Positions 3,471 through 52,677 of a DNA stretch of 64,000 nucleotides are shown here, piece by piece (positions within the stretch are counted from its first letter, which is position 1; the number at the start of each line of letters is the position of its first letter). Below the pieces are notes generated by a model. The model saw only the letters and a program-made list of their open reading frames with translations, was not told where the DNA came from and ran no database searches. Source of the DNA: Desulfomicrobium baculatum DSM 4028. Its GTDB lineage: Bacteria; Desulfobacterota; Desulfovibrionia; Desulfovibrionales; Desulfomicrobiaceae. Location of the stretch: NCBI RefSeq assembly GCF_000023225.1, contig NC_013173.1, forward strand, positions 124,001 through 188,000, given 5' to 3'. The position numbers were made by a program, and so were the translations under genes.

Positions 3471-3488
3471 TTTGATGGCAAAAAAAAA

Positions 3489-12295: not shown

Positions 12296-12305
12296 TCGTC
12301 TCTGC

Positions 12306-14090
12306 TCAATCCAGAGAGGCTGCCAAATTCGTGGCTTCCCGGTTCTGGCCCAGTTGCCGCAGGGTTTTGATCTGTTCGAGTATTCTGGCTTTGGTGTCGG
12401 CCTGATACATGTAGCAGTCTATGGACAGACGCGTCTGCATTTCATGGCTTTGAGCCAAAAGGCCCAGGGCTGTGATGAATTCGGTCGGGCTGGATGCGGG
12501 GAACGTGCCGGAGATGTGTGGGTACAGGTCTGAGTGGATCATGGCGCAATCCGATGGCAGACGCAGGCCCGCTATGGATTGGCCGATGCCGGTGACCAGA
12601 AGCCCGAAGAGCAGAACGTCGGGGTTGGTTATTGGCCTTGGCGAGTTGCTGAGTTGTTGCATGCATTGCGTCGCCAGAACGGGCTCGGTCATGGCCTTCA
12701 CGACTCCGGTTTTGGGATTCCACCGGAAATGATTTTCCAGCCATTTTGGCCAGTCGAAAGGCACCACGAGCCCGCCCCGCAGGATCGCCGTCAGAGGGGA
12801 TTGGCTGCCGCGCAGGCAGGCGTAGAGTTCATTGCAATGGAAAGATCCTGGCCTGTGCGTCGCATCCAGGATTCCCCCACTTTCTTGTCCCCCAAAAACG
12901 CTGATGCGCAATCGATGTCCGGGCGCATTGGTCCGCAGGCGCTCAATATCCTGGCGGATGATCTCGGGTTTCGCGTCGTCGTCTTCCAGGAGGATGACGT
13001 CCATGTCTTTTTTTTCCGGAAGATTGCGGCCATGGACCCAGTCCAGGATGGCCTCGGCGGCTCGCTGGACGCTCCGGCCGTCGCGTCCGTGGTCCAGGGC
13101 CATGGCGTAACGTTTCCGGATCGCGGAGCGCCGCTGTGGCTGCGCCAGTTCAGTGCGCACAGCCTGGAGCAGCTCCTCCAGGGAATTGACCAGCACGGCG
13201 GCGTCTCTGGTCATGTACTCGATATCCTCGGCCCGGTAGAGAGGGAACTCTTTGAGCCGCGGGTTGTTGAAGAGAATGACCGGCTTGTCCAGCAGCAAAA
13301 ATTCGATGAAGATCGAGGACACATCGCTGATCATGAGGTCCGCCGCGTGCATCATTCCGGAGTAGTCGGCGTCTTCAAGGTAGAAGATGCTGTGGTTGGA
13401 CGCGGCGATGTTTGCGTACAACTCTTTGAATCTGTCCTCTGTCATGTTGTGCAGCTTGATCAGCAGCACCGTGTCCTTGTCCGCGACCTTGCGGATTCCT
13501 TCCTGCAGGCAGTGGATGGCGGAGAGTTCCGGATTGTAGGTCGGGGCGAAGAGCACGATCCGTTTGGAAGGGTCGATGCCCAGGCGCTCACAGAATTGTT
13601 CCCTGGTCTGGACCTGCTGCCCGAAAAGCTGATCCGATTTGATGAAACCCGTTAAACGGATGGGGATGAAGACATTGTCCAGGAGCCTGCGGCGGTGCAG
13701 CGGGCCAGGCACGAGAAGCAGCTGCGAGAGGTTCTCGCGCCGTGTTATCTCGGAATCCGTGTAAAAGGCGCCTTTGCAGATCATGCCGTGTCCGACATTG
13801 ATCACATTTCTGATCTGGGGGATGCGAAAATGGCAGGCATCGGCCACAATGGTCACGTCCGGTTCGAAATCTTCCAGATTGGCGTAAAAGGGGGCTTTTT
13901 GTTCGAGCCTTCGAATCTGCGCTTCGGGCAGGCCCCATTGTGGAATTTCCGGGGTTCCCGGGAAGAAATCGGGCGCGGAAAAAGCGGTGACCGCCAATCC
14001 GTTCCGACTCAGATACTCCTCGATGGGCTCAAGGAATGGCAGGTGCAGGCTGCGTTCGACGTAAAAAAGAATTTTTTTCAGATCGCTCAT
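12306..14090 (-). CDS. TagB/TarF-like CDP-glycerol glycerophosphotransferase family protein with unknown C-terminal domain
   Basis: 594 residues from the ATG at 14090, chosen because GCAAGGAA precedes it and upstream in-frame sequence is unconserved. Residues about 1-370 match the Glyphos_transf fold: INVGHGMICKGAFY, VLFAPTYNPEL, KLHNMTEDRFKELY and DLMISDVSSIFIEFLLLDKPVILFNNP. Such enzymes in Gram-positives move a polyol phosphate from a CDP-polyol. The last 200 residues (from KKDMDVILLEDDD) are a domain I do not recognise, possibly a second transferase-like fold, ending in helices. The polyol or sugar phosphate moved here is unknown. Confidence 0.78.
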   Translation of the reverse strand: MSDLKKILFYVERSLHLPFLEPIEEYLSRNGLAVTAFSAPDFFPGTPEIPQWGLPEAQIRRLEQKAPFYANLEDFEPDVTIVADACHFRIPQIRNVINVGHGMICKGAFYTDSEITRRENLSQLLLVPGPLHRRRLLDNVFIPIRLTGFIKSDQLFGQQVQTREQFCERLGIDPSKRIVLFAPTYNPELSAIHCLQEGIRKVADKDTVLLIKLHNMTEDRFKELYANIAASNHSIFYLEDADYSGMMHAADLMISDVSSIFIEFLLLDKPVILFNNPRLKEFPLYRAEDIEYMTRDAAVLVNSLEELLQAVRTELAQPQRRSAIRKRYAMALDHGRDGRSVQRAAEAILDWVHGRNLPEKKDMDVILLEDDDAKPEIIRQDIERLRTNAPGHRLRISVFGGQESGGILDATHRPGSFHCNELYACLRGSQSPLTAILRGGLVVPFDWPKWLENHFRWNPKTGVVKAMTEPVLATQCMQQLSNSPRPITNPDVLLFGLLVTGIGQSIAGLRLPSDCAMIHSDLYPHISGTFPASSPTEFITALGLLAQSHEMQTRLSIDCYMYQADTKARILEQIKTLRQLGQNREATNLAASLD

Positions 14091-14113
14091 ATTTCCTTGC
14101 CGTCCGCGAGCTT

Positions 14114-15346
14114 TCAGCGCTCGTGGCGTGAAAGCCAGCCCATGTAGAGTTTTTCCCAAAACGGTTCGCCCGAAGATTTCGCCCATTGCACGCGACGAAT
14201 AGCCTTGCGGTGCAGGTCCTTGGATTCCGTGGCGATCTTTTCAAGCTTTTCCAGCGCATGCTGCGCCAGTTCTGGTTTGCCTGCTTTCTGGGCCGCTTTG
14301 AGCATCTGGATGTAGCGCATCTTGCTCGGATGGAAATGTGCCGCCAGGGTTCGGATATGCAGGGCTTCCTGAAATGATTGGCGTGCATCGAGCCATCCGG
14401 CCAGAAGGTCATAGCCTTCTTCCCAGAGGGGTTCCTGGTCAAGCATGTCGAGGCAGAGACGGGGATTGCCGCCATCTGCCAGGGCGACAAGCTCTGCCGA
14501 GCGCGTCGCGGAGAGGCACACAGAGGCCAGGAGCCATTCATTGAGCCGGATGTCGTACCCGTCTTGCACGACATGGCGGTGGAGGTCCGGAGTGAGGCTG
14601 CGCTCATGCCTGGACAACAGCAGCGCGGAATTCGGCTGGTCGTTGTCGAACCGGCCTACAGTCTGACTGGTGTGATGGTAGACAACGCTCTCGGGAACAC
14701 AGCGAAAACGATATCCCTGCGCGCCAAGGGTAAGGCACAAATCGATATCTTCGCAGCCGTTCTGGTACCCTTCGAAAAAACCGCCGGCGTCCATGAAGAC
14801 TTTTTTGGACATGCACAGGGCCGCGGCGGTGATTGCTTTTGGATGTCTGTGCTCAAAGATCACCGGGTGCTTTGCTGGAAAGTACTCGTAGAGATGCTCG
14901 GCCTGCGCTCCTGGAAGAAAGGCAATCCCCAGATGCTGGACCAGATTGCTTCCCGGATACAGAAGCAACGGGCCGACGCCGCCCAGGCTTGCGTCTTCGC
15001 TTTGGGCTTGAAGGAGTGGCGGGAGCCAGTTCGGGGTCAACTCGGTGTCGTTGTTCAGGAAAAAGAGCGTTGGGGAGGACGCAATCTTTGCGCCGAGGTT
15101 GCAGGCATGGGCAAAGCCATGATTGCGATCGCAATGGATCGCCCGGAAAGAATCGCCCCAAAGTGATGCCCCCAAAGCATCAAGCTCTTCGCGGGTTTGA
15201 TCCGTCGAGGCATTGTCGACAACGACCACCTCGATGATCTCTGAAGTATGTCTGTGAAGCGAACACAGGCACTTTGAGGTGAATTCCCATTGGTTGAAGA
15301 CCGGGATTATGATGGATACTCTGTAAGGTTGCGTGGGCATTATCAT
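14114..15346 (-). CDS. GT2 glycosyltransferase with helical C-terminal extension
   Basis: About 410 residues. The GT-A domain covers about 1-260: VSIIIPVFNQWEFTSKCLCSL, VVVDNASTDQT, DRNHGFAHACNLGA, FFLNNDTEL (DXD) and FEGYQNGCEDIDLCLTLGAQGY. The final 130 residues look like TPR-type helix pairs, a layout repeated in several island proteins. The start is uncertain among a TTG (15349), an ATG (15346) and an ATG (15340); 15346 is chosen as the longest ATG start. It begins six bases after the stop of the upstream gene. Confidence 0.85.
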   Translation of the reverse strand: MIMPTQPYRVSIIIPVFNQWEFTSKCLCSLHRHTSEIIEVVVVDNASTDQTREELDALGASLWGDSFRAIHCDRNHGFAHACNLGAKIASSPTLFFLNNDTELTPNWLPPLLQAQSEDASLGGVGPLLLYPGSNLVQHLGIAFLPGAQAEHLYEYFPAKHPVIFEHRHPKAITAAALCMSKKVFMDAGGFFEGYQNGCEDIDLCLTLGAQGYRFRCVPESVVYHHTSQTVGRFDNDQPNSALLLSRHERSLTPDLHRHVVQDGYDIRLNEWLLASVCLSATRSAELVALADGGNPRLCLDMLDQEPLWEEGYDLLAGWLDARQSFQEALHIRTLAAHFHPSKMRYIQMLKAAQKAGKPELAQHALEKLEKIATESKDLHRKAIRRVQWAKSSGEPFWEKLYMGWLSRHER

Positions 15347-15351
15347 CAATT

Positions 15352-16557
15352 TTAGGGAGTTCCTGTTTCGGCAGCAAGATTTTTGATGTATTCCGATTTG
15401 TCTTTGTCATTCTTTAAAATGTCATGAAATTTTGATTGAATGTACTTTATCATATTTTTTGCGTCATCAGTTTGCTTCATTGATATTTTAAATTCAGCAT
15501 AATCAATGCACGAGCTGTAATCAGTTTGTCTTTGAAATAGTCTATGCAAATATTTTAAAGCTTCCTTATCATTTTTATTCTTTTTGCAAATTTCAAAATT
15601 TATGTAGTCTATGATTTCTTTTTTATGTTCGTTTATACATATTTTTTTGACAAGATGTTTTGCGAGGTCTGTTTTTCCTAGATAAATATTTTTTAAAACC
15701 ATGTCGTAATATGCTTTCGTCTGACTCTTTTCGTCATTTCTGTCTTTGATCAGGCGTTTCACGAATTCAAAATCATCCAGAAATTGTTCTGATTTATTTG
15801 CAAATTTTTGTGCGAAGTCGTCATGAACAGTCGCCTTGTCCAGTTGCTGGAAGAATGCGTCGTGCTTTCTTTTTCCGGCTTCGTCGGAACGATCGGCTCT
15901 GCCTCGTTCTATTTTTTTGCAATAATCTTCGTGTGATCTGTAATAGTAGTGGTTGAGCTGGATGCTCTTTGCCGTGAAAGGGCCTTGGGATTCCGCCAGT
16001 GGAAAGCAGTTTTCGTCAACGCAGAACCAGGGTTCGTTATAGATGAATCTGTGCGGGTCGCAGGAACCTTTCACTCTCCCGGGCTGCACGATGGATTTGA
16101 TGTGCATATTTTTCGGATAGTCCAAGGGGAAACGCTGTACGTAACTTTGCAGCTGCATCTGCGGTGGCCTGGTCAGGTATCCTGAAGATCCGAATTCGAC
16201 CCAGTGCACTCCGAGTCCGCCGAAATCTTCATAGTCGGTCAGAATCAATCGAACGTCTTCGGATTGTTTCGGGACGATGAACTCATCGACATCGATGAAG
16301 GCAATCCATTTCGATTTTTTTTCATATTCACGCAGGCAGCGGTCGTAGGCTGCCATCTGCTGCTCTTTGCCCGTGATCTCAAAGAAATCCACGATTCCGT
16401 GATCGATATACTCTTGGACTGAGTTTTTCAGGCTGGGAGAACTGTCATTATCGAAAATGATGATTTTCTCGGCGCCCACCAGCAGATGATGGTTGATCCA
16501 TTCTTTGATGAACGGATGCTCGTTCTTGGCGATGCAGCAGACACTCAGATAATTCAT
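15352..16557 (-). CDS. GT92/GT2-like glycosyltransferase with AT-rich helical tail
   Basis: 401 residues. The catalytic half (1-270) has the family 92-like pattern CCIAKNEHPFIKEWINHHLLVGAEKIIIFDNDS, KWIAFIDVDEFIVP (DXD) and IQLNHYYYRSHEDYCKKIERGRAD. The rest is lysine-rich helical sequence resembling TPR-like repeats. Base composition changes within the gene: the 5' two thirds match the genome, whereas about 15360-15760 is clearly AT-rich. That suggests a transferred or recombined tail. Confidence 0.8.
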   Translation of the reverse strand: MNYLSVCCIAKNEHPFIKEWINHHLLVGAEKIIIFDNDSSPSLKNSVQEYIDHGIVDFFEITGKEQQMAAYDRCLREYEKKSKWIAFIDVDEFIVPKQSEDVRLILTDYEDFGGLGVHWVEFGSSGYLTRPPQMQLQSYVQRFPLDYPKNMHIKSIVQPGRVKGSCDPHRFIYNEPWFCVDENCFPLAESQGPFTAKSIQLNHYYYRSHEDYCKKIERGRADRSDEAGKRKHDAFFQQLDKATVHDDFAQKFANKSEQFLDDFEFVKRLIKDRNDEKSQTKAYYDMVLKNIYLGKTDLAKHLVKKICINEHKKEIIDYINFEICKKNKNDKEALKYLHRLFQRQTDYSSCIDYAEFKISMKQTDDAKNMIKYIQSKFHDILKNDKDKSEYIKNLAAETGTP

Positions 16558-16635
16558 GCGTTTTCAAGTTATGGGATTGAGATTGTCGCCCAGGCCCTGT
16601 GCGGCGGCTTGGCGCATTTCGGGGGCAGGCAGGGT

Positions 16636-17307
16636 CTACTCGGCGAACATGCTCAGCGCCTGCTTCAAGTCTTCCTCGAAATCGACCTCGATGCAGCGGT
16701 AGGCGGAGATATCCACGGCGGAAAAATCGACGCCCTGCTTGATGAGCATTTCCACGCCCATTTCGAAATAATCCTGTTCCTTGCACCGGGCCAAAGCCTG
16801 CAGGAAGACCGGGATGTCATTTTTTTGAATGCGGTTCACGCCCACGGCTTCACCCTCGGGCGCGGCGACCTTTTTTGAAATTTCAAGGATCAGTCCGTTC
16901 TGGTCTGCCCGGTACTTGACCTCTTCCTCGCCGCATTTCTTGCGGTCCACGGCCACGGCATTGCCCGCATGAGCCGCCATCTCCCGGATCACGCCCTCGT
17001 CGAAGACCACGTCTCCATTGCACCAGATGACGTCGTCATCCAGAAATTCCAGTGCGCAGCACAGGCTCTTGGAGGTGTTGGTGATGTAGTAGATGGGGTT
17101 GTAGCGGTAATAGACGTCGGGAAACTCCTCCATGATCAGGTTCTTCTTGAACCCCACGACCACGAAGATCTCGTTGATCCCGAACTGGCGAAAAATCCGG
17201 ATCTGCCGCCCGAGAATGCGCTCTCCAGTGGGAAGCATGGACAGGCATTTGGGAAACGGCCTGCCGAGCCGACTGCCGACGCCCGCGGCGAGGATGACTG
17301 CTTTCAT
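16636..17307 (-). CDS. Nucleotidyltransferase, LicC-like (CTP:phosphocholine cytidylyltransferase type)
   Basis: 223 residues from the ATG at 17307, with GAGGTC five bases upstream; an in-frame ATG four codons earlier lacks a ribosome site. The N-terminal MKAVILAAGVGSRLGRPFPKCL is the NTP-transferase signature loop with its catalytic Arg and Lys. IWCNGDVVFDEGV supplies the metal-binding Asp and VDFEEDLKQAL the second. The overall pattern (SKSLCCALEFL, EEEVKYR, EISKKV) resembles LicC and related sugar- or choline-phosphate activators. Beside two TagB-like genes, it may make their CDP-linked donor; the exact substrate is unknown. Confidence 0.82.
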   Translation of the reverse strand: MKAVILAAGVGSRLGRPFPKCLSMLPTGERILGRQIRIFRQFGINEIFVVVGFKKNLIMEEFPDVYYRYNPIYYITNTSKSLCCALEFLDDDVIWCNGDVVFDEGVIREMAAHAGNAVAVDRKKCGEEEVKYRADQNGLILEISKKVAAPEGEAVGVNRIQKNDIPVFLQALARCKEQDYFEMGVEMLIKQGVDFSAVDISAYRCIEVDFEEDLKQALSMFAE

Positions 17308-17392
17308 GAAGGACCTCATTTGTTGGGAATCTTAAGCAAGATTGGTACCCATATGAGCGCGCGTAGAATTTAGCTCTGGGCTTAGTGGACAG

Positions 17393-19726
17393 TTATTTTG
17401 CTTTGAGTGCAGCTTCTCTGTACCGTTCTGCTTTTTTGAGGTCCCCTTTTTCGGCATAATGCGCGGCAAGACGCAGCAATGATGTTGCTTTGGAATTGAC
17501 TACGGGTTGGGGAGCGAGGCTGTTTTGAGCCATCCAACAATCTTTGATCTGCTTAAAAAGACGCTTTCGAATGGGTCTGTTTTTTGGGAGATCGGTCATC
17601 TTTTGGACATTGGGCGCGTTCAGAATCTCAGGCGTGAAATTGCATGTTGAGAACTGACCGCACAGTGAGAGTAACTGTTCACGAGACATGCTCTTAAACC
17701 ACCAAGGATGCCTTTGGATGATTTCCAGTTTTGAATTGATGTTTACGTCGGACCGTTCACCGAAACGTTTCTCTTGGATTCGGTACATGAATTGCGGAGT
17801 CTCTGTATGGAGACTGGACCAGCCGGATTCTGCCGCCTTTATCCAAAACTCCCAATCCTCTCGGTCAGTCATGGTCTCATCAAAACCTTCAACTTCGTCC
17901 CAAAGCTCGCGCCGGAAAATCGAAGTGATAGGAGAAGGGCAGACAGTGAGCATCTCCTTCAGGTCAAAATCGAAATGATAAAAAATATGATGAACTCTTC
18001 CAAACTGTAGTGTAATTGGAGTGATCCATCCTGCCTCGGGATTCTGTTCAAGGCAGGAGACTGCTTCTTCTAAATATGTTGATCCCAGCATATCATCTGC
18101 ATCCAGAATACAGACATATCTTCCAATCGATTCAGAGACCCCTCTATTTCTCGTACAACCTTTGCCTTTATTGGTTTGGTCTAAAATAGTTATGGGTTGA
18201 TCCGAGTATCTTTGAGCCAGGTTTTGAGCAGTTTCAAGAGAATCGTCAGTTGATCCGTCGTTAACAATAATCAGCTCCCAGTTTGAATAGGATTGGTTGA
18301 CAACGCTCATAACGGATTCTTTTAAAAACAGACCTTGGTTGTACAACGGGATAACGACGCTGACGATTGGAGCTCTGGTGTCATTTGGTTTACTCTGAGA
18401 CGGAGCTAGCAGCACCTGTCTGAACACCGTGCTCAGTATTTCAGACCCGCCAAAAGAAAGGTAAAAATCCGTGCAAATTTTCTTGGCCTCGGCGTTTTTG
18501 CCGAGTTTACAAAGAAAAAGGGCCAGCGCCCAAAAGTGAAATTCAATATCGGCGATATGAAGAGGATTGGACTCATTGATTAAAGAGATCGCTTTTAGAA
18601 TTTCTTTCTTGTGAAACTCGCACTTGAAAGCCAGTGTCTCCGGCAAGATACGCGAATGAGATAAAAATGTACGGATCCCTTTTTCGGTTGTGCCTGGATA
18701 AAGGAATCCTGGATTTGATTCCCAGGAAGAAGCGAACTCCACAATTGCATTGGCTGCTCTTTGAGAAGCACTGCCGTCAGTATACTCATAGACGGCCTTT
18801 ACGGCTTTGTTACGCTTTGCTTGTTGTTCCGGCAGATCAGCTAGGGCTAATTCAATCGCATCAAGCAGGTCGTCGGGATGATCACAATTGACGCCGACAT
18901 CCGCGTGTTCCCAGAAGCGTAGGCCGTGTTCTATGTCTCGCCTGTACCAGGGGGCATTGAGGACTACCACCGGTCGATCCGTGGACGCGAATTCAAAAAG
19001 TGTCGACGAATTGTCGCAAATATAGATGTCAGCCCTGTTCATAATATTATCGAAATTACGAACAATTTCAATTTTGTATTCGGCGTATATCGGAGATAAT
19101 TGGTCGATGATTCGAGGGTGTCCGTGTCCTAATATCTTCCAACGATTTTGCAGTCCAAGTGCTTTGATTGCTGATTTAAAATAAAGGTATGCTGATCTGG
19201 TTTCAGGCAGTGTCTTTCTATCAAAATGAAAAGATAAGGCTATATTTGGAGTAGGATTAGAAAGAAAAATTGGTTCTGCGTGCCATTTATCCAAAGCGGG
19301 GCATCCAACGGCGCGTTTAACAGAATAGGGATAGCGTAATTGAAATATTTCAAGAAGCCTCTTGCTTGGAAGGATATCAAGTAAAATATTTTTTCTTTCA
19401 AAATAATATAGCGGCGAATCAATATATGTTTGCCCTGCACCGTGCTCAACATAAACCATTGGCCTGTTAATACCTAACAAAAAATCAACTTTATAAAAAG
19501 TAGCCAAAACAAGTGGATTCTGAGATGAAAGTATTGTATCCTCAATTTCTATAAATGATTTAGCGATATGTTTGTTTTTTATCCTGTTGAGATCAGTAAA
19601 ATCACGAGAATTGTCATGCTGAGTAATAATGAAAAAAGTTCCCTTCAAATTGTCAGGAATTGATTGCCATATAGGCTTTAAGTGATCAAAATGATGTCTT
19701 TCCCAAACAATAAAATCGATGCTCAT
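17393..19726 (-). CDS. Bifunctional TagB-like phosphotransferase / GT2 glycosyltransferase fusion
   Basis: 777 residues with three parts. Residues about 1-335 are a CDP-glycerol glycerophosphotransferase-like domain (VEHGAGQTYID, LSFHFDRKTLPETRS, GHGHPRIID, IYICDNSSTLFEFASTDRPVVVLNAP). About 335-450 are helical linker. About 455-690 are a GT2 domain (VSVVIPLYNQGLFLKESVMSVVNQSY, VNDGSTDDSLETA, CILDADDMLGSTYLEEA, FDETMTDREDWEFWIKAAESGW). The C-terminus ends in a TPR-like helix pair. Composition is more AT-rich than the flanking genes. No clear ribosome site precedes the ATG at 19726. One protein may add both a sugar and a phosphate-linked unit. Confidence 0.82.
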   Translation of the reverse strand: MSIDFIVWERHHFDHLKPIWQSIPDNLKGTFFIITQHDNSRDFTDLNRIKNKHIAKSFIEIEDTILSSQNPLVLATFYKVDFLLGINRPMVYVEHGAGQTYIDSPLYYFERKNILLDILPSKRLLEIFQLRYPYSVKRAVGCPALDKWHAEPIFLSNPTPNIALSFHFDRKTLPETRSAYLYFKSAIKALGLQNRWKILGHGHPRIIDQLSPIYAEYKIEIVRNFDNIMNRADIYICDNSSTLFEFASTDRPVVVLNAPWYRRDIEHGLRFWEHADVGVNCDHPDDLLDAIELALADLPEQQAKRNKAVKAVYEYTDGSASQRAANAIVEFASSWESNPGFLYPGTTEKGIRTFLSHSRILPETLAFKCEFHKKEILKAISLINESNPLHIADIEFHFWALALFLCKLGKNAEAKKICTDFYLSFGGSEILSTVFRQVLLAPSQSKPNDTRAPIVSVVIPLYNQGLFLKESVMSVVNQSYSNWELIIVNDGSTDDSLETAQNLAQRYSDQPITILDQTNKGKGCTRNRGVSESIGRYVCILDADDMLGSTYLEEAVSCLEQNPEAGWITPITLQFGRVHHIFYHFDFDLKEMLTVCPSPITSIFRRELWDEVEGFDETMTDREDWEFWIKAAESGWSSLHTETPQFMYRIQEKRFGERSDVNINSKLEIIQRHPWWFKSMSREQLLSLCGQFSTCNFTPEILNAPNVQKMTDLPKNRPIRKRLFKQIKDCWMAQNSLAPQPVVNSKATSLLRLAAHYAEKGDLKKAERYREAALKAK

Positions 19727-19765
19727 AGATTAATCCAGATTGAATATAGCATAATGTATAAATGT

Positions 19766-22700
19766 TTATGGTATGGCTACTTTGCTTCTTAAAGTAATGC
19801 ATTTTTTTGTCTGAAAAAGCAGGTCTGCAATCTCTTTATCTGAAGGGGAAAGAGTGCTGGCTTGAGAGATATAATGCATTGCATTTATAGGATCACCAAG
19901 CATCAAGTAGTGCATTGAAATAATTTTGAGCAGGTTTGAATTTACTGGGTCAAAATGTGATAAAGCTAAATATAGATATAAAGATATGTTATAATTTTTA
20001 AGGGCAAAATATTTTTTGGCATGTTTTGTTAATAAGGTAATTATGTCAGAGTCATTCAATTCAAAATTATGATTTTTTTCTGTACCTTGAATATTCATTG
20101 ATTTAACAAAATTAAAATATTCGTCTATGTACCGGGTTTGGGTTTTTTTCATGATTTGCGAAAATATAGCGTGATGACTTTGAAAGTCATTCATTAGTTC
20201 GAGAATATATTTTTTCTTTTTTAATAGAGAGCTGTTGCTATGATCGTTTATTAAGTATTTCTCACATGTTAATAAGGCATCATTGAGTGCGTAAATTTCA
20301 ATAAATCGATCAATAATTTTTAAATAAGCAGTTTGAAAAGCGATGAGTTTTTCGTTTTTCCAATTTAAATTGTTAAATAAATTTTCTATTTTTGTTTTTT
20401 CTAAAATATTATTTGTAATTTTAGCTTCATAACTAAAATCAGTTTTGATTGGATTTTTAATCCCTGTAATGTTGTTATTGTGAAATCTAATATAATTAAG
20501 GTATTTATCAACATGTTTGCAAGTAAATTTTCCTGCAAGAGCAACTCTACTCCAAAATTCCATATCGTGTGCTCGAAGAAAATTGATGTCGTATTCGCCT
20601 ATTTCTGAATATATACTTTTACGTACGAGTGTTCCAAGGTTAGGGAGTGGATTTTTGGTCATAAATCTTCGAAGCATTTCATCATTTTTATTATGCCAAT
20701 CTATATGTGAGTATTGCTTTAAGACATAACCTTTTTCATCGATACAAAAATGATTTGAATAAAATATATCTACATCACTAAATGAATCCATTAAATTGAC
20801 ATACTCTTCGATAATTTTGGAAGATATAAAATCGTCGCTATCAAGCCATAAAATAAAATCACCACTTGATTCGAAAATGCATCTGTTACGAGTGTCCGGT
20901 GCGCTTGTATGTTCTTTTTGAATGTACTTTAAGTTTTTTATTCCATAACTAAGAACGATATCTCTTGTGTTGTCTGTAGATCCATCATCTACAACAATAA
21001 TTTCACAATTTTTATATGACTGATTTGCAGCTGATTTTATAGCTGATGAAATAAAATTTTCTCTATTATAGGTTGGTATACAAATAGAAATTAATGGATT
21101 TTCAATTACTTTGCTAGATTTTATTTTGCGATAGTTTGCGTTTGGAGTTCTAACGAAACTTGCCCCAGATTTTAGGAGGAGGACTTCTTCATTGTTGCGA
21201 AAATGTTTCCAGCTTTCAATGAATTCGTTATAATCAGGATGTTTCTTTTTAAGACGTGCTCTTGATTGCCGTTGCTTTTCTCGCTTCATTTCAAGATGGC
21301 TTTGATCCGATGCAAAGTCATGGAATATAATCGGATCAGGGCTGTAAATCTGCTTTCGCATATCAGGCTCAATTTCGAGAAGGCGTCGTGATAAATCGAC
21401 TCCTCCTCCTCCAAATCTGATTGCATCATCCCAGCCGTCAGCCTTGAAAAATGCTGAGGCAAGATACGATGTGTTTCCTTCAATATCAGCATAAATTGGG
21501 AAGGGCTTTGGTCCTAGGTAGTAATGTTTCGCTTGTTGGTTAAGGGGGTTGTTTGTTTTTGGCTTGCAAACTCCGCGTACAGCGATAACATCGAACTTTG
21601 TATAGCAGCTTAAATGGCTATCGATAATATTGTCTGCAGGAATTGCATCATCGTCTAGAAAAAAAAGTATTGGAGATTTAGCGAAAATGCTTCCTATATT
21701 ACGTGCTAAATAGGCTCCAGAATTGCTGTTAAGACGTACGTAAGTATCGATATTGGGTTTCAAAGCATCAAATATCCCAAGATCGGAGCCGTTATCGACA
21801 AAAATAATCTCAAAGGGTTGGGTACGTTGTTTTTTCAGGATTTGTAGGCAGTTTGTGGTATCAGGATGAAGGCGCCATGAGATGATGATAACAGAAACTG
21901 CTGGTATTTTATTATCATTAATAATTTCTGCGTAGTCAAAATGTGAAGAGTAGTCGAAAAGCTTATGTAGCCAGTTAATGCTTGAAAGATAGCTTTCAAT
22001 TTTATGGACAGTTGTGAAGCTATTGCTTGTTAAAATGTTCTTATTGGGAGGTTTGTTTTCAAAATCTTTCCCCGCCTGTTCGTGGGTCAATAAGATGCTT
22101 GCTGGCTTAAATGAAAATATTAATTCTCGGAGTAGTTTTGCAACCGGTTCATAGGAGAAATTTTGTTGAATTAAATTTCTGCAGTTAGTGCTGAAATTAT
22201 TCCATAGGATTTCATTTTCATAAAGTTGGATTGTTTTTTGTGCAAACTCTTCTGGAAAATCCGCGATAAAGCAATTTTCTCCATCAATTAGATCAAATCC
22301 CTCTGCCCCAATGGTTGTTGCCACAATAGGGAGGCCGTTAGCCATAGCCTCCCCGAGTTTGCCCTTCATTCCGGCTCCGTAGGTCATGGGGCAGATGAAA
22401 ACACGAAATTGCGCCAGAGCCTTTTCTAAGTCATGGACAAACCCATGAACGCATATAGTTGGGCCAGCTAATTGACTAAGTTTAGTGTCAGCCTCTCGGC
22501 CTAGAATATGTAACCGAAGTTTAGGATACTTTTTGGAGACGTATGGAAAGATTACTTTCACGAAGTGTAAAACAGCATCAATGTTATGGTTGATGTTAAA
22601 ATTGCCGAGATATACTAGATCGCCGCGTTGATCATAAGAAGTATTCACAGTTGATATTTGGTGAATATTCGGAATTACATAAATAGAAGGGGAGTCCAAT

Positions 22701-23248
22701 TTTAACCCCAAAATGTCATTTTTTTCATCTTCGGTCACTACAACTACCGCATCAGCATTCGGATAATTTGTTTTTTCTAAATCAAGAAATTTTTTTGCTG
22801 TAAATAAATCGTCAGGTGATCGGGTGATTGCGTATCGGCGGTGATATTTTTTTGCATGCAAATCCATAGTATCAAGAATGATTTTAACTTCAGGTCGTCG
22901 ATTGCGCACGTTGTTCATCAACTGCGACATGGATTCGAAAAAAATAGGAGTCCAAAGGTTCGTTAACCAAAGGATGTCCGGTTTCGAGGCGAGAATATTT
23001 TGAACGTGTTCATGGGGACTGCCGTTTAGTCGTATAGTGTTTACTTCTGGTATCGATTTAATGTATCGTGTATCATCGAGAGACGTATAAAAATAAATGT
23101 AAGTAATATATATTCCCATATTTGAAAGTAATTTTACTATATGATAAATACGAGTATTCGATGATCCAACGTCAAATCGTGGTAAGTAATTGCTAACGAT
23201 GGTCAGATTGATATTTTTTAAATAATCTTTTTGCATTTTATTTTCCAT
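19766..23248 (-). CDS. Giant three-domain glycosyltransferase (GT4 + GT2 + GT2) with helical tail
   Basis: 1160 residues, markedly AT-rich. Residues 1-385: GT-B domain (DVGSSNTRIYHIVKLLSNMGI, GFVHDLEKALAQFRVFICPMTYGAGMKGKLGEAMANGLPIVATTIGAEGF). About 445-690: GT-A domain (VSVIIISWRLHPDTTNCLQIL, FVDNGSDLG, LFFLDDDAIPADNI). About 725-960: second GT-A domain (ISICIPTYNRENFISSAIKSA, VVDDGSTDNTRDIV, FILWLDSDDF, FLRAHDMEFWSRVALAG). The last 180 residues look like TPR helices. Three active sites suggest processive assembly of a short oligosaccharide. An ATG at 23236 has a better upstream GGAA and may be the true start. Confidence 0.85.
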   Translation of the reverse strand: MENKMQKDYLKNINLTIVSNYLPRFDVGSSNTRIYHIVKLLSNMGIYITYIYFYTSLDDTRYIKSIPEVNTIRLNGSPHEHVQNILASKPDILWLTNLWTPIFFESMSQLMNNVRNRRPEVKIILDTMDLHAKKYHRRYAITRSPDDLFTAKKFLDLEKTNYPNADAVVVVTEDEKNDILGLKLDSPSIYVIPNIHQISTVNTSYDQRGDLVYLGNFNINHNIDAVLHFVKVIFPYVSKKYPKLRLHILGREADTKLSQLAGPTICVHGFVHDLEKALAQFRVFICPMTYGAGMKGKLGEAMANGLPIVATTIGAEGFDLIDGENCFIADFPEEFAQKTIQLYENEILWNNFSTNCRNLIQQNFSYEPVAKLLRELIFSFKPASILLTHEQAGKDFENKPPNKNILTSNSFTTVHKIESYLSSINWLHKLFDYSSHFDYAEIINDNKIPAVSVIIISWRLHPDTTNCLQILKKQRTQPFEIIFVDNGSDLGIFDALKPNIDTYVRLNSNSGAYLARNIGSIFAKSPILFFLDDDAIPADNIIDSHLSCYTKFDVIAVRGVCKPKTNNPLNQQAKHYYLGPKPFPIYADIEGNTSYLASAFFKADGWDDAIRFGGGGVDLSRRLLEIEPDMRKQIYSPDPIIFHDFASDQSHLEMKREKQRQSRARLKKKHPDYNEFIESWKHFRNNEEVLLLKSGASFVRTPNANYRKIKSSKVIENPLISICIPTYNRENFISSAIKSAANQSYKNCEIIVVDDGSTDNTRDIVLSYGIKNLKYIQKEHTSAPDTRNRCIFESSGDFILWLDSDDFISSKIIEEYVNLMDSFSDVDIFYSNHFCIDEKGYVLKQYSHIDWHNKNDEMLRRFMTKNPLPNLGTLVRKSIYSEIGEYDINFLRAHDMEFWSRVALAGKFTCKHVDKYLNYIRFHNNNITGIKNPIKTDFSYEAKITNNILEKTKIENLFNNLNWKNEKLIAFQTAYLKIIDRFIEIYALNDALLTCEKYLINDHSNSSLLKKKKYILELMNDFQSHHAIFSQIMKKTQTRYIDEYFNFVKSMNIQGTEKNHNFELNDSDIITLLTKHAKKYFALKNYNISLYLYLALSHFDPVNSNLLKIISMHYLMLGDPINAMHYISQASTLSPSDKEIADLLFQTKKCITLRSKVAIP

Positions 23249-23599
23249 TTAACGATTTTAATGTCATTGCGCATTTCAATATGCGGTGTTAATATTTTAT
23301 TAAAACATGTGTATGTAAATATTTTGCCTGTATAATATGAAATGATTTGTGTCCACAGGAAGTCAGAGGGGTTTGCAATGCTCATCACTGATATCAAACG
23401 AATACCAAGGAGGCAACATTGGTCATGTCGCTCAGATTTAATAGGCGATCAGTGATCGACACGGCAAAATCAACCCGATAACCATCCAGGCAGACAGAAA
23501 ATGATGTTGCTATTTTTTTTGCGAGAAGTGTGCCAATTGTCAATTTTGCTACCCGTGGATAGTTTCATTCGGTTGTTCAATTCTGGGTAGGGGGTAACC
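23249..23599. promoter_or_regulatory. Divergent intergenic region at a composition break
   Basis: Between the AT-rich giant transferase (leftward) and the GC-richer WcbI-like gene (rightward). It should hold promoters for both. A TATAAT is present at 23331-23336 on the plus strand without a good -35. CGATCA-G-TGATCG (23446-23458) is a small dyad that could be an operator. A Shine-Dalgarno-like AAGGAGG (23407-23413) precedes a TTG/ATG that opens only an 18-20 codon frame; I take this as a relic or leader, not a gene. Nothing else is recognised. Confidence 0.4.
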
Positions 23600-24475
23600 A
23601 TGGAGCCACGCATTATCATTTACGCTACTTGCCAAGGTGAGTACCTTGCCAAATTTTTGCGCGCATCCCCCGGCTTGCGTGGCTATGCTGTCGATGTTTA
23701 TCGTAATTATGGACAACCGGGTGTCTTTCAGCCACCAAATATACCAGATGAAGCGTTGGATAGGTGTGATTTGCTTATCTACCACGCTGTGAGTAACGAG
23801 GCGGGGCGGGCTGCAGTGGCGCAGTTGCTGAGCAAGCTGCAGCGGGGTGCGCTCCGTGTCGAACTACCGTATGTTACGTCCAATCTCTATTGGCTGTTGC
23901 ATTACCGCACATGGACCCCTTTGGGCGTGTCTCACGCTAGACGGTATGGGCTAATTCCTTACCGTAGCGAAGCACTGGATATGCTGGTGGACTGCGGCTT
24001 GGACGAGGACGAGGTGGTGCGGTTATACAGTTCTCTGCATATAGATCAAGTGTTGAACGTGGATGCCGCCGTGGCCGAAACCTTCTCTTACTGGGACGAC
24101 CTGGATCGGCGGGCGGATGGCATATCCGTGGCACCTTTTTTGCGCGAACGTTACCGCAACGAAATGCTGTTCTATATGTTTAATCATCCTTCCAAAGCAG
24201 TGTTTCGTTATATGGCTGATCAGCTACTGGCCCGGCTGGGACTTCCCGGTTTGCCAGACGAAGCGTTGCGGGGGCAGGACTGTGGGCAGAAGGAAATGGT
24301 GCCTATACATCCGGGGCTAGCCCACCGTCTGGGGCTGCGTTTCGTGCGTGCTGCCTCTCGATATTTGGTTAACGGACGGATGATGGGCTTCGAGAATTAT
24401 GTGCGCATGTACTACCGGTTACGACGGCAGGAAATTGCCCAGGTCGCGACTGTGGTAAAGAGAGGAGTGGTATGA
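23600..24475 (+). CDS. WcbI-like polysaccharide biosynthesis protein (putative acyltransferase)
   Basis: 291 residues. The opening IIIYATCQGEYLAKFLRASPGL, with a Gly/Thr-Cys-Gln motif, and the later segments ELPYVTSNLYWLLHYRTW, FLRERYRNEMLFYMFNHPSKAVFRYMADQLL match the WcbI family, named from a Burkholderia capsule locus and proposed to acetylate polysaccharide. GGGGGT lies just upstream of the ATG. The stop overlaps the start of the broken methyltransferase by ATGA, so the two were once a coupled pair. Confidence 0.75.
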   Translation: MEPRIIIYATCQGEYLAKFLRASPGLRGYAVDVYRNYGQPGVFQPPNIPDEALDRCDLLIYHAVSNEAGRAAVAQLLSKLQRGALRVELPYVTSNLYWLLHYRTWTPLGVSHARRYGLIPYRSEALDMLVDCGLDEDEVVRLYSSLHIDQVLNVDAAVAETFSYWDDLDRRADGISVAPFLRERYRNEMLFYMFNHPSKAVFRYMADQLLARLGLPGLPDEALRGQDCGQKEMVPIHPGLAHRLGLRFVRAASRYLVNGRMMGFENYVRMYYRLRRQEIAQVATVVKRGVV

Positions 24476-25170
24476 ACGATCTTATGTACTTGGATGGCGA
24501 ACGGTTGACACGTATGCTGGGACTATCGAGAGGGTGGCGGATATCACCCCTGAGAGCGAGATACCGCACCTGTTCCGGTCGCTACCGCTGGACGTGTTCG
24601 GTCAGTTACCCATCAATCGCCCTCCCTCCTGTTTTCCAAAAGTCGATCGGCTATTGCCCGTTATGCCGCCCGATGACATTCAGCAACTCTGGCAGGCGTT
24701 TGTGGTCATACACTCATGGCGCAGAGCTGCGCCTTCGTGAAGAGTATGCAGCGTACGTAGTTGCTATATCGCGGCACGCCTTGGAGCACGCAGCAGGTGC
24801 TGGATTACGGCTGTGGTTGGGGGCGCCTGATGCGCTTAATGTATAAGTTTTTTCCGGCGTCGCAGCTACATTGAGTGGATGCTTGGTCCGGTTCCTTGAG
24901 TCTGTGCACAGATTTTGGCCTGCCCGGCAGCTTTTCACTGTGCGAAGAGGTGCCCTCAGGGCCGCCCGTGCTTGGCCAAAAGTTCGATCTCATCTATTCT
25001 TTTTCGGTCCTGACGCGCTTGTCGGAAGACTGTCATTTGGCAGTGTTGGGTTCGTTGCGGCAAGCAATCAGCAATGAGGGGATGCTTTTTGTCACCATCC
25101 GTCCGGAAACCTTCTGTGATGCCGCCCGCGACCTTAGTACCGCTACGGTCCTTAAGCGTCGCCACATGCA
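24472..25170 (+). pseudogene. Degraded class I SAM-dependent methyltransferase
   Basis: A methyltransferase can be read only by joining three frames. It starts in one frame at 24472 (MNDLMYLDGERLTRML), moves to a second by about 24520-24535 (VADITPESEIPHLFRSLPLDVF), then to a third by about 24695 (TLMAQSCAFVKSMQRT). The third frame is cut by TAG at 24758 and TGA at 24872. That frame contains the SAM-binding core VLDYGCGWGRLMRLMYKFFP (24797-24856), the post-I acidic VDAW and the later FDLIYSFSVLTRLSE. The C-terminus is lost where the converging radical SAM gene ends. Two frameshifts and two stops rule out a single sequencing error. Confidence 0.85.
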
Positions 25171-25179
25171 AAGCGGGTG

Positions 25180-26325
25180 TCAAGGTGTCGTGAGGATCGG
25201 ATTCGATGCGCGTTGCAAGGCTACTCCTCCGGGGCACGACCAGCAGAACCGGTCGGGCTGCTCGCCGGACAGGATCTTACGACGGATGGCCACAAGGACG
25301 TCGTTGTTCCAAAAGTCCATCACGGTTGGGAAGTCGGAGGCATATCCTAGGGTGTTGATGTCACCGAGCACCACCGCGTTGCAGGCGTGCGGAATTAGGT
25401 TTTCGTCGTATCGGGCCGGGTCTATGCCTTTAACCGGCCAAATCTGGATTTTTTCCCAGAAGACGGTGCACTTGCCGCCCGGATCGTCGAAGGGCGTTGG
25501 TAGCTGCACGGTGATTCCGCATTTCTCACCCATGCGGCGCATATGTTCAAGACTCTTCGTGATCTCCACGTCGGCTTTGTGATAAACATTGTCGATTGCT
25601 GTGAAATTGTTGAACATATGTGGGAATAGACCCACCACGTTCAATTGCATTTTGATGCGGTGGGTTGATAGCACGTCGATAATCTTGGGGATGGCCTTGT
25701 AGTTGCCTCGTGACAGGATGCACGAGCCGATGATGCGTATGCCGTGGTTCGAGAAGATCCGCAGCGTGGCCAGCAGATCCTTGAGTGAACTCCCTTTCTT
25801 GATGCTGTCGAACACTCCTTCGTCTCCGGCGTGCAAATCGGTGACGATGTAGGAGATCACATCCTTTCGTTCTAGAATCTTGCGCAGATAGTTGCCGCGT
25901 TCCATGACCGAGGAGTTGAAGTTCGACTGGAACGAGGCTTTGCCGTAGCGTTCGGCAACGTAGTCGATCATGTCCATGATGCCGTCATGAAGAAACGGTT
26001 CACCTGTTGCGCAGATGTGCACATGCGGCACCCGCCCGGCGTGGAAGAAGTCTACATGCTGGCGGAACCGTTCCACGCTCATCTTGTACTTCAGGTTGTA
26101 CACATTGGATTTTCCATTTCGTGCGTCGTGCGAATGGTACGAGCAGAACGTGCAGCGGTTGGTGCATGCACTACCGATGGCCACAGTGGCCCAGCGGGGA
26201 GGATAACTGACGATGGCTGTTCTCAGGCTCTCCTGTCGGTATCGCTCGGCGTCCTGCCGCATCAATTCCTCGCGGTTGGACTGCCAACTGTCTTTCTGCG
26301 AAGTAGCTTGCTGCTGCGGTATCAT
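25180..26325 (-). CDS. Radical SAM protein
   Basis: 381 residues from the ATG at 26325, which shares one base with the upstream stop (TGATG) and has GGGAGG six bases before it. The [4Fe-4S] motif C54-TNR-C58-TF-C61 is followed by a GE-type SAM-binding motif (CATGEPFLHDG) and an (alpha/beta)6 core. Two C-terminal cysteines (FCWSCPGG) may bind an auxiliary cluster, less than a full SPASM domain. It is last in an island operon with an amidotransferase and methyltransferases, so it could modify a sugar or a peptide; the substrate is unknown. Its 3' end abuts the truncated pseudogene. Confidence 0.88.
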   Translation of the reverse strand: MIPQQQATSQKDSWQSNREELMRQDAERYRQESLRTAIVSYPPRWATVAIGSACTNRCTFCSYHSHDARNGKSNVYNLKYKMSVERFRQHVDFFHAGRVPHVHICATGEPFLHDGIMDMIDYVAERYGKASFQSNFNSSVMERGNYLRKILERKDVISYIVTDLHAGDEGVFDSIKKGSSLKDLLATLRIFSNHGIRIIGSCILSRGNYKAIPKIIDVLSTHRIKMQLNVVGLFPHMFNNFTAIDNVYHKADVEITKSLEHMRRMGEKCGITVQLPTPFDDPGGKCTVFWEKIQIWPVKGIDPARYDENLIPHACNAVVLGDINTLGYASDFPTVMDFWNNDVLVAIRRKILSGEQPDRFCWSCPGGVALQRASNPILTTP

Positions 26326-49717: not shown

Positions 49718-50397
49718 TCAGAGACTGGAGAGGACGCCGAGAAGCAGGCTGACCGCGGCCAAAGCGTAGGCCTTGCGTACACGCAGAGCGAGAATGGCCC
49801 CGGCGCAGGCTGCGATCCAGAGCATGGTCCACGTCGGCTGCGGACCTCCGGCAACCCAAGGCCGGACGGTTTTCAGGCCGATGAGGAGAGGCAGCAGGCA
49901 GAGCCAAAAGAGGGAGAAATTGAGCAGGAAAAATTCTACCAAAGCTTTTGCGGTGAGCCGGTGCGGCGCGAAGATGGCTGTGTTGCCCTGGCGGTTCCAG
50001 GTCAAAAGCTGGTTATAGCCGGCGTTTTGCCGTTTGCGGTAGAGTTGTTCGACCCACGCGCCAAGGTAGGCCAGAGGCAGGGTCGCGATGACGACCAGCA
50101 CGGTGGTGCGCATGTCGGCATCCGGTAGGCAGGCCAGAATGGTCAGCGTGGCGGCCAGGGAAAAGAGCGCCTGGGGCGGGATGTAGGTTCCGGCCGGGAA
50201 CAGATCAAGCCAGAGCAGTTCGAAGAAAATGCCCGCGCTTAAAGCCGGCTGGAGGTTGAAGGACAGTCCCGCCCAGAGCAGGGCGGCGAAAAGCGGACGA
50301 TGGATGAAGCCGAGGTCGATGGCGACCCGGGTCAGGGACAGGAGGGCAAAAAAAAACTTCCTCCGGCCAGCAGGATGAGGTCGTGAGTGCTTACCAT
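49718..50397 (-). pseudogene. PTS mannose-family EIIC, frameshifted in a poly-T tract
   Basis: The membrane channel component of a mannose-type PTS. The 3' part (DMRTTVLVVIATLPLAYLGAWVEQLYRK to the end) and the 5' part (MVSTHDLILLAGGS) are in different frames. They join through an uninterrupted open stretch reading ALLSLTRVAIDLGFIHRPLFAALLWAGLSF if the nine T residues at 50356-50348 (minus strand) were ten or seven. As sequenced, the 5' frame stops about seven codons later. Six or so membrane helices are visible. It may be a true mutation, a phase-variable tract, transcriptional slippage or a sequencing error. No EIID gene follows. Confidence 0.75.
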
Positions 50398-50422: not shown

Positions 50423-50887
50423 TCATAAAGTAATCTTGGCCGTTGCCGACGGCACGCAGCGGAAGTCGATTTCCACACCGTGATCGGCGAAATACTTCAG
50501 GCAGGAACGGTCTTCCGCTCCCAGGGCAATGTGTTCGCAAATCTGCTCTTTGCCCGGTCCGTAATGCAGATTGCCGATGTTGACCAGGGAAAAGGACAGC
50601 CCGGTCATGTGCGCGGATTTGGCATCGGCGCAGTCGGAAAAAAGAATTAGCACATGATGGTCCGGGTTTTTCGTGCGAATGCTTTTCAACATCGAAGCAG
50701 CTTCGGACACCGGACAGCATTGAAAGGAGATGCCGCTCGGAACGGCCAGACTCATGATTTCCTGCCGCAATTCATCGGCGGCGAGGTCGTCGTTGGCCAC
50801 CAGCAGGGTTTTGGCCCTGATGTGCGGTAGCCAGGCCTCAATGATCTGGCCGTGGACGAGTCGGTTGTCGATACGGAACCAGAGCAC
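50423..50887 (-). CDS. PTS mannose/fructose/sorbose-family EIIB
   Basis: 154 residues from the GTG at 50887, three bases after the EIIA stop with GAGG seven bases upstream. Longer in-frame extensions overlap EIIA and are spurious. The phospho-acceptor histidine is in WFRIDNRLVHGQIIEAWLP, the EIIB-Man signature. SLVNIGNLHYGPG and the C-terminal sheet fit the family. It would accept phosphate from EIIA-Man and, in classical systems, pass it to sugar entering through EIIC/EIID. Confidence 0.92.
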   Translation of the reverse strand: MLWFRIDNRLVHGQIIEAWLPHIRAKTLLVANDDLAADELRQEIMSLAVPSGISFQCCPVSEAASMLKSIRTKNPDHHVLILFSDCADAKSAHMTGLSFSLVNIGNLHYGPGKEQICEHIALGAEDRSCLKYFADHGVEIDFRCVPSATAKITL

Positions 50888-50889
50888 TC

Positions 50890-51300
50890 TTACGCCTCGG
50901 TGATTTTGCGGGTCAATACTTCGCCGGCGACAACGATGCCCTGAATGGCCGCGTTTTTGGCGTCCGTGGCCAATTGGGACAGGTCCTGGGTGCGCATTCC
51001 CAGAATCCTGAGCAGCATGGGCAGGTTGGCGCCGGTCAGGACGTCGACTTTGCCCGGTTGCAGGAGAGACAGGCTGATATTGGATGGAGTGCCCCCGAAC
51101 ATGTCGGTCAGGATGATCACGCCGTCGCCTGTTTCCATCTGTTTGACGGTTTGCTTGAGATCCGAGAGCAACGCGCTCATTTCCACGGTTCCTTCCACAG
51201 CTATATGGGCGCACTGCTCCTGCGGTCCCAAAATTGTCTGGGCCGCTTCAAGCAGATATTTTCCAAACTGGCCATGGGTTACCACGATCACTCCAACCAT
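50890..51300 (-). CDS. PTS mannose-family EIIA
   Basis: 136 residues. The phosphorylated histidine is in VIVVTHGQFGKYLLEAA near the N-terminus; ILTDMFGGTPSNISLSLL and VDVLTGANLPMLLRIL complete the EIIA-Man signature. AGGAGTA precedes the ATG. It lies 12 bases after rapZ. HPr and EI genes are not in the window. Linkage to ptsN and rapZ suggests that it serves regulation as much as transport. Confidence 0.94.
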   Translation of the reverse strand: MVGVIVVTHGQFGKYLLEAAQTILGPQEQCAHIAVEGTVEMSALLSDLKQTVKQMETGDGVIILTDMFGGTPSNISLSLLQPGKVDVLTGANLPMLLRILGMRTQDLSQLATDAKNAAIQGIVVAGEVLTRKITEA

Positions 51301-52227: not shown

Positions 52228-52677
52228 CTAGACGGTCTGCAGCAGTTGCCACAGCCCTTCCTGGCCGGGAGAGTTGGTAAAGGCCTGACGGAACGAGCTG
52301 TCTTTTAGCAGGCGGGAGACCGTGGCCAGAAGCTTCAAATGCAGGCCGACCACGCTTGAAGGGGCCAGCACCGTGAAAAAGATGCTGGCCGGTTTGTGGT
52401 CCAGACTGGCAAAATCCACTCCTTCGTGGCTGCGGCCGACAATGACCAGAACCTGATCGATACTGTCCAGCTTGCCATGGGGTATGGCGATCCCATCCCC
52501 GATGCCCGTGGTTCCGAGCAGTTCCCGATCCATGAGGACCTGGGTCACGCGCTTGGGGTCAAGATCGGGGTATTTGGCCGACAGCCGCGAAACGAGTTCG
52601 GCCAGGACCTCGGGTTTGGTCCTGGCCGAGAGGTCGGAGATGATCAAATCCTTGTCCAGGTATTCAGCAAGCTTCAT
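52228..52677 (-). CDS. ptsN: PTS nitrogen regulatory EIIA (EIIA-Ntr)
   Basis: 149 residues. The active histidine lies in TTGIGDGIAIPHGKLDSIDQVLVIVGRS; FFTVLAPSSVVGLHLKLLATVSRLLKD is the other EIIA-fructose-type signature. It is a regulatory phosphocarrier rather than a transporter part. A GGGGTATAGGGA ribosome site inside the end of hpf sets the ATG at 52677. Confidence 0.94.
   Translation of the reverse strand: MKLAEYLDKDLIISDLSARTKPEVLAELVSRLSAKYPDLDPKRVTQVLMDRELLGTTGIGDGIAIPHGKLDSIDQVLVIVGRSHEGVDFASLDHKPASIFFTVLAPSSVVGLHLKLLATVSRLLKDSSFRQAFTNSPGQEGLWQLLQTV

Follow-up and report, generated by a model that had tools for sequence, protein, structure and literature searches.

Conserved Run of Nine T at a Frame Break in a Mannose/Sorbose-Family PTS EIIC Gene of the Desulfovibrionales, Probably Bridged by Transcriptional Slippage

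How is the membrane channel subunit of a phosphotransferase system (PTS) made when the start codon and the body of its gene lie in different reading frames? The question is raised by the EIIC gene in a stretch of 64,000 nucleotides from Desulfomicrobium baculatum DSM 4028, which was analyzed as a whole, is called the window here, and sits inside one contig of 3,942,657 bases. The gene proved to be broken at the same spot in nearly all relatives across the order Desulfovibrionales, which very likely means that the protein is made by way of a deliberate slip, probably during transcription.

FRAME BREAK IN THE EIIC GENE

The coding (minus) strand at positions 50361 to 50341 reads GGAAG, nine T, and GCCCTCC, just as the original prediction had it; this string has a single match in the window and none in 100 shuffles. 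The putative slippage tract, recognized from the sequence and from its order-wide conservation, is the run itself (50348 to 50356, minus strand), which is read AGT TTT TTT TTG in the frame of the start codon (the 0 frame). Translation from the ATG at 50397 yields only 21 amino acids, comprising the EIIC N terminus as far as the tract and then a short tail that ends at a TGA (50332 to 50397, minus strand). The EIIC body, 209 amino acids plus a stop codon (49718 to 50347, minus strand), lies in the -1 frame, so that the frame break claimed for this gene is present. This body frame stays open between 50419 and its stop codon at 49718, and it contains no ATG, GTG, or TTG ahead of the tract. The predicted arithmetic of repair is also correct: ten T (+1) or seven T (-2) would join the ATG at 50397 to the body frame.

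Runs of nine T (T9) are common enough that the run alone carries little meaning. Two occur in the window, versus 0.72 expected by shuffling, and the 3.94-Mb genome contains 102 match positions, some of them overlapping. T9 by itself is therefore not rare; what is beyond chance is its order-wide conservation at EIIC in one codon phase. No terminator-like site was found at the EIIC tract. The other T9 of the window (3480 to 3488) is intergenic and starts immediately past a minus-strand TGA stop codon.

IDENTITY OF EIIC AND ITS GENE NEIGHBORHOOD

The EIIC body scores 20.6 bits against the Pfam family EII-Sor (PF03609), below the cut-off of 26.3, and is for this reason regarded as a divergent family member; 11 of 15 aligned EIIC relatives match PF03609 at an E value of ≤0.01. 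The fold predicted for the protein has a pLDDT of 82.9, and the five best Foldseek matches of the model are Man-PTS complexes, with probabilities of 0.92 to 0.99, although the E values are only 0.1 to 0.2. A sequence search of solved structures returned a Man-PTS EIIC at an E value of 0.3, ranked under two unrelated complex I matches (E value, 0.03). Taken together, the predicted fold and the partner genes identify the product as a probable EIIC of the mannose/sorbose PTS family.

Those partners lie upstream on the same strand, and all exceed their Pfam cut-offs: EIIB directly upstream (PTSIIB_sorb, PF03830, 150.6 bits; 50423 to 50887, minus strand), EIIA (EIIA-man, PF03610, 77.1 bits; 50890 to 51300, minus strand), a RapZ-like gene (PF03668 and PF22740; 51313 to 52200, minus strand), and a fructose/Ntr-type EIIA (PF00359, 103.5 bits; 52228 to 52677, minus strand). 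Downstream is a DHH/DHHA2 phosphoesterase, probably a manganese-dependent inorganic pyrophosphatase (PF01368 and PF02833; 48707 to 49627, minus strand). An EIIB-like sequence precedes EIIC in all 246 surveyed loci with enough flank. EIID lies apart from EIIABC, at position 3746165 of the same genome (region G000:C1:3746109-3748964; L175, 3109 to 5964), and the PTS is thus split over two loci. The reading frames adjoining EIID resemble HPr and EI by eye. With EIIA, EIIB, EIIC, and EIID in the genome along with these HPr- and EI-like frames, a complete mannose-type PTS seems to be present.

SURVEY OF THE ORDER

Among the initial relatives, 26 loci were compared in addition to that of the window, a count in which some genomes appear twice, and T9 stood directly before the EIIC body in 24 of them; the two exceptions were loci of one genome (G009) that carry A followed by eight T. 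A profile built from 15 EIIC bodies then detected EIIC in 252 of the 348 genomes of the order, which represent 49 of its 59 genera. The 96 genomes with no match include many of genus g32. We read 251 loci from 250 of the 252 genomes (G341 and G343 were left out, and G049 gave two), and after four partial loci were dropped (G235, G050, G154, and G141), 247 were usable. The survey covers one genome per species, so its length counts compare species.

T9 lies directly before the EIIC body in 230 of the 247 usable loci, spread over 43 genera, and at 228 of these a start codon is found at most 26 codons away in the frame that requires a shift. The remaining two are a contig edge (G049) and a T9 that is in frame (G062). 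Log-probabilities calculated from these counts assume independent genera and are approximate. In one further locus, G180, additional to the 230, T9 occupies a different codon phase and still needs a -1 shift. Beyond the tract, the 0-frame tail varies in length from 3 to 78 codons and is thus not a conserved product. The comparison with relatives that the original prediction had proposed bears out the tract and the frame break, and resequencing is very unlikely to reveal ten T in the window, because T9 is found in genomes of 43 genera.

LOCI WITHOUT THE TRACT

An exact T9 is missing from 16 usable loci, 14 of which encode EIIC in an uninterrupted single frame. Three of these have ten T (G281, G135, and G168), four have eight (G009, G295, G315, and G345), and seven have no run of at least eight T (G051, G075, G174, G175, G228, G316, and G344). 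All of the last seven are in frame, and they are fair natural controls, since their frame does not follow mechanically from the length of a run. The homologous N terminus of the in-frame orthologues continues straight into the EIIC body. The other two loci are less regular. G314 (L178), a complete genome, has ten T in frame, bringing the in-frame T10 loci to 4 of 247, yet shows a second frame break downstream near a G run, which may reflect decay, homopolymer errors, or another cause. G111 (L270) has eight T and is out of frame, and its near-identical sister genome G112 has T9; the T8 may be a mistake in assembly or genuine length variation.

A sample of the phylum (395 genomes) gave 114 genomes with a match, 16 of them from the order. 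Of the 98 matches outside the order, 14 were read, and all 14 had no tract, an intact frame, and an in-frame ATG, GTG, or TTG 33 to 42 nucleotides upstream. Judged from these sequences, the frameshift appears to be derived within the order, with several later losses. On the tree, frame and tract each changed 14 times; of 11 independent pairs with support, 10 were concordant and 1 did not differ, a count that is weak alone because a changed run length shifts the frame mechanically. A scan of viral contigs gave no match.

SELECTION ON THE BODY AND THE TRACT

The out-of-frame body is under purifying selection, with a median dN/dS of 0.20 (range, 0.04 to 0.52) over 62 within-genus pairs, limited to four per genus and excluding pairs whose dS exceeded 1.5 or whose pS fell below 0.05. 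For the 12 codons 5' of the tract, read in the 0 frame, the pooled pN/pS was 0.53, which is a weaker signal than that of the body.

All nine T positions are fixed across the T9 loci. The first T occupies the third position of a GCT, GGT, AGT, or TGT codon, although Ala, Gly, and AGY codons in the EIIC genes end in T only 14.7% of the time; comparisons of the same residue at this codon differed in 0 of 126 cases, versus 0.32 to 0.54 in other codon bins. The ninth T is likewise fixed, although TTC accounts for roughly half of the Phe codons in the EIIC genes. According to PMC3711429, seven nucleotides take part in a -1 ribosomal slip, and conservation of nine thus appears to exceed what either the codons or a slippery heptamer would need.

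TRANSLATIONAL SIGNALS AND ALTERNATIVE EXPLANATIONS

The main rival of transcriptional slippage is programmed -1 ribosomal frameshifting, in which tandem Phe-tRNAs would slip on U UUU UUU, on U UUU UUG, or on both within the U9 run, and which we regard as a lesser but real possibility. At 228 loci both heptamers are in register with the 0 frame (NNT TTT TTT TTG/A), and the direction is a constant -1, even at G180 with its other codon phase. A single shift direction is taken by Antonov et al. (PMC3711429) as a sign of ribosomal frameshifting, a rule that predicts this mechanism here; that the direction never varies among the loci accordingly counts against slippage by RNA polymerase. The conserved length is open to a similar argument, in that overlapping heptamers (T1 to T7 and T4 to T9 plus G) could jointly demand nine T. 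Ribosomal frameshifting is disfavored, in turn, by the conservation of all nine bases, the free third position included, and by the lack of enrichment of the expected stimulators, namely, an upstream Shine-Dalgarno (SD) sequence or a downstream structure, which are usual at efficient -1 sites and not strictly required. SD-like motifs precede the tract in 17 of 230 loci, no enrichment over a control rate of 7.2%. RNA structure showed no excess over shuffles or over the rest of the gene (mean downstream z, -0.13) in the 71 of 230 loci examined, at most two per genus, with shuffles that preserved composition only. Synonymous change 3' of the tract is not suppressed, apart from a small decrease (to 0.32) over the first three codons.

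The other alternatives fare worse. Homopolymers of such length are mutable, and the original prediction had suggested that EIIC may be phase-variable through replication slippage, which would toggle the gene between T9 (off) and T10 (on); the four in-frame T10 loci are what such phase variation would produce. We consider it very unlikely all the same: if the tract switched freely, the other state should be seen in many genomes, whereas 230 of 247 loci across 43 genera share the same "off" length, and the body evolves under purifying selection. An internal start past the 0-frame stop, by reinitiation or coupling, would translate the body alone, and the stop does lie near the point where the body begins. 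Such a start is highly improbable, given that the first ATG in the body frame of this genome is 79 codons into the body, that an ATG preceded by an SD-like motif occurs within the first 50 body codons at only 1 of 229 loci (6 of 229 when GTG is allowed), and that the in-frame orthologues retain the matching N terminus. A sequencing error or a gene decayed in one genome would also break the frame; homopolymers are error prone, and one or the other fault may account for G314 and G111. For the gene in the window this explanation is of negligible probability and is refuted by the comparison, barring identical errors in all assemblies: the same tract and break recur at 228 loci of separate genomes, with a dN/dS of 0.20.

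PROPOSED MECHANISM

Programmed transcriptional slippage at U9 is, in our judgment, probably needed for full-length EIIC, and the suggestion of transcriptional slippage in the original prediction holds up. RNA polymerase copying the T run would form a weak rU:dA hybrid that realigns in a fraction of transcripts and alters the length of the U run. The start codon would be joined to the EIIC body only where the U run exceeds that of the template by one base (or falls two bases short of it), and the other transcripts would give a short peptide terminating soon past the tract. EIIC would then be produced in fixed proportion to transcription and, since most transcripts would end after the short peptide, would be less abundant than its soluble partners EIIA and EIIB.

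Support for slippage comes from the conserved relation of tract and frame, the selected out-of-frame body, and the frame restored in nearly all loci without the tract. Selection against A/T runs in many bacterial genomes appears at nine nucleotides, according to PMC1088944, and a fixed nine-T run at which translational stimulators are not enriched fits slippage by RNA polymerase. Against it stand, besides the constant direction, the out-of-frame T8 of G111 and the recent-looking T10 (G281, G135, and G168) and T8 (G295) loci; the latter four show that a nonslipping version is viable.

That the polymerase rather than the ribosome slips, the rate at which it does so, and dosage as the purpose are what we infer from these patterns; the simplest purpose would be a constant restraint on the synthesis of a membrane subunit. 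A regulated valve, in which UTP level or RNA polymerase speed sets slippage at U9 with no regulator protein, seems unlikely. If it did operate, the amount of PTS channel would track the nucleotide and energy state of the cell across an order of mostly sulfate-reducing bacteria.

RELATION TO KNOWN SYSTEMS

The -1 ribosomal frameshift of Escherichia coli dnaX resembles EIIC in its direction and its homopolymeric heptamer. The dnaX site carries an SD-like stimulator and a hairpin; EIIC differs in that neither SD-like motifs nor structure is enriched. Other likenesses are found among slippage systems described in PMC1088944, PMC5009743, and PMC3711429. In mxiE of Shigella flexneri, as proposed for EIIC, a nontemplated U in a U run joins two open reading frames for the longer product (PMC1088944 and PMC5009743); mxiE encodes a regulator and is carried on a plasmid in a single lineage, whereas EIIC is a chromosomal PTS channel gene of 43 genera whose site lies about 14 to 25 codons past the start. 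Thermus thermophilus dnaX shares with EIIC a nine-base homopolymer (A9) in a chromosomal housekeeping gene (PMC1088944), but its full-length product comes from the unslipped transcript, whereas that of EIIC would come from the slipped one. Transposases of insertion sequences also have frames fused at runs of 9A or 9T, presumably limiting expression (PMC1088944). Unlike EIIC, they are mobile two-ORF systems, and those of IS630-type families shift in both directions (PMC3711429).

The type of mechanism is thus known, and what looks new is the EIIC family and the order-wide conservation. Our literature search found no paper on this EIIC gene; an earlier listing is possible in Penno et al. (2015) or in Sharma et al. 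(2011), the likeliest survey to include it. The recoding candidates of PMC3711429 were chosen by seven A-rich heptamers, a selection that a poly-T site probably escaped.

If the proposed slippage is correct, a chromosomal, nonmobile gene in 43 genera depends on a slip for its full-length product, and natural controls exist in which tract and frame break vanish together. Why a costly slip is kept in a transporter becomes testable, as does the choice between RNA polymerase and ribosomal slippage by comparison alone. Annotation pipelines may call EIIC a pseudogene or shorten it, and the PTS of the Desulfovibrionales may therefore be misread as channel-less.

Elsewhere in the window, the GC content of the region from 12300 to 26300 falls to 0.37 at 20 to 24 kb; this region, whose long open reading frames resemble by eye glycosyltransferases and other surface-polysaccharide genes, was possibly acquired.
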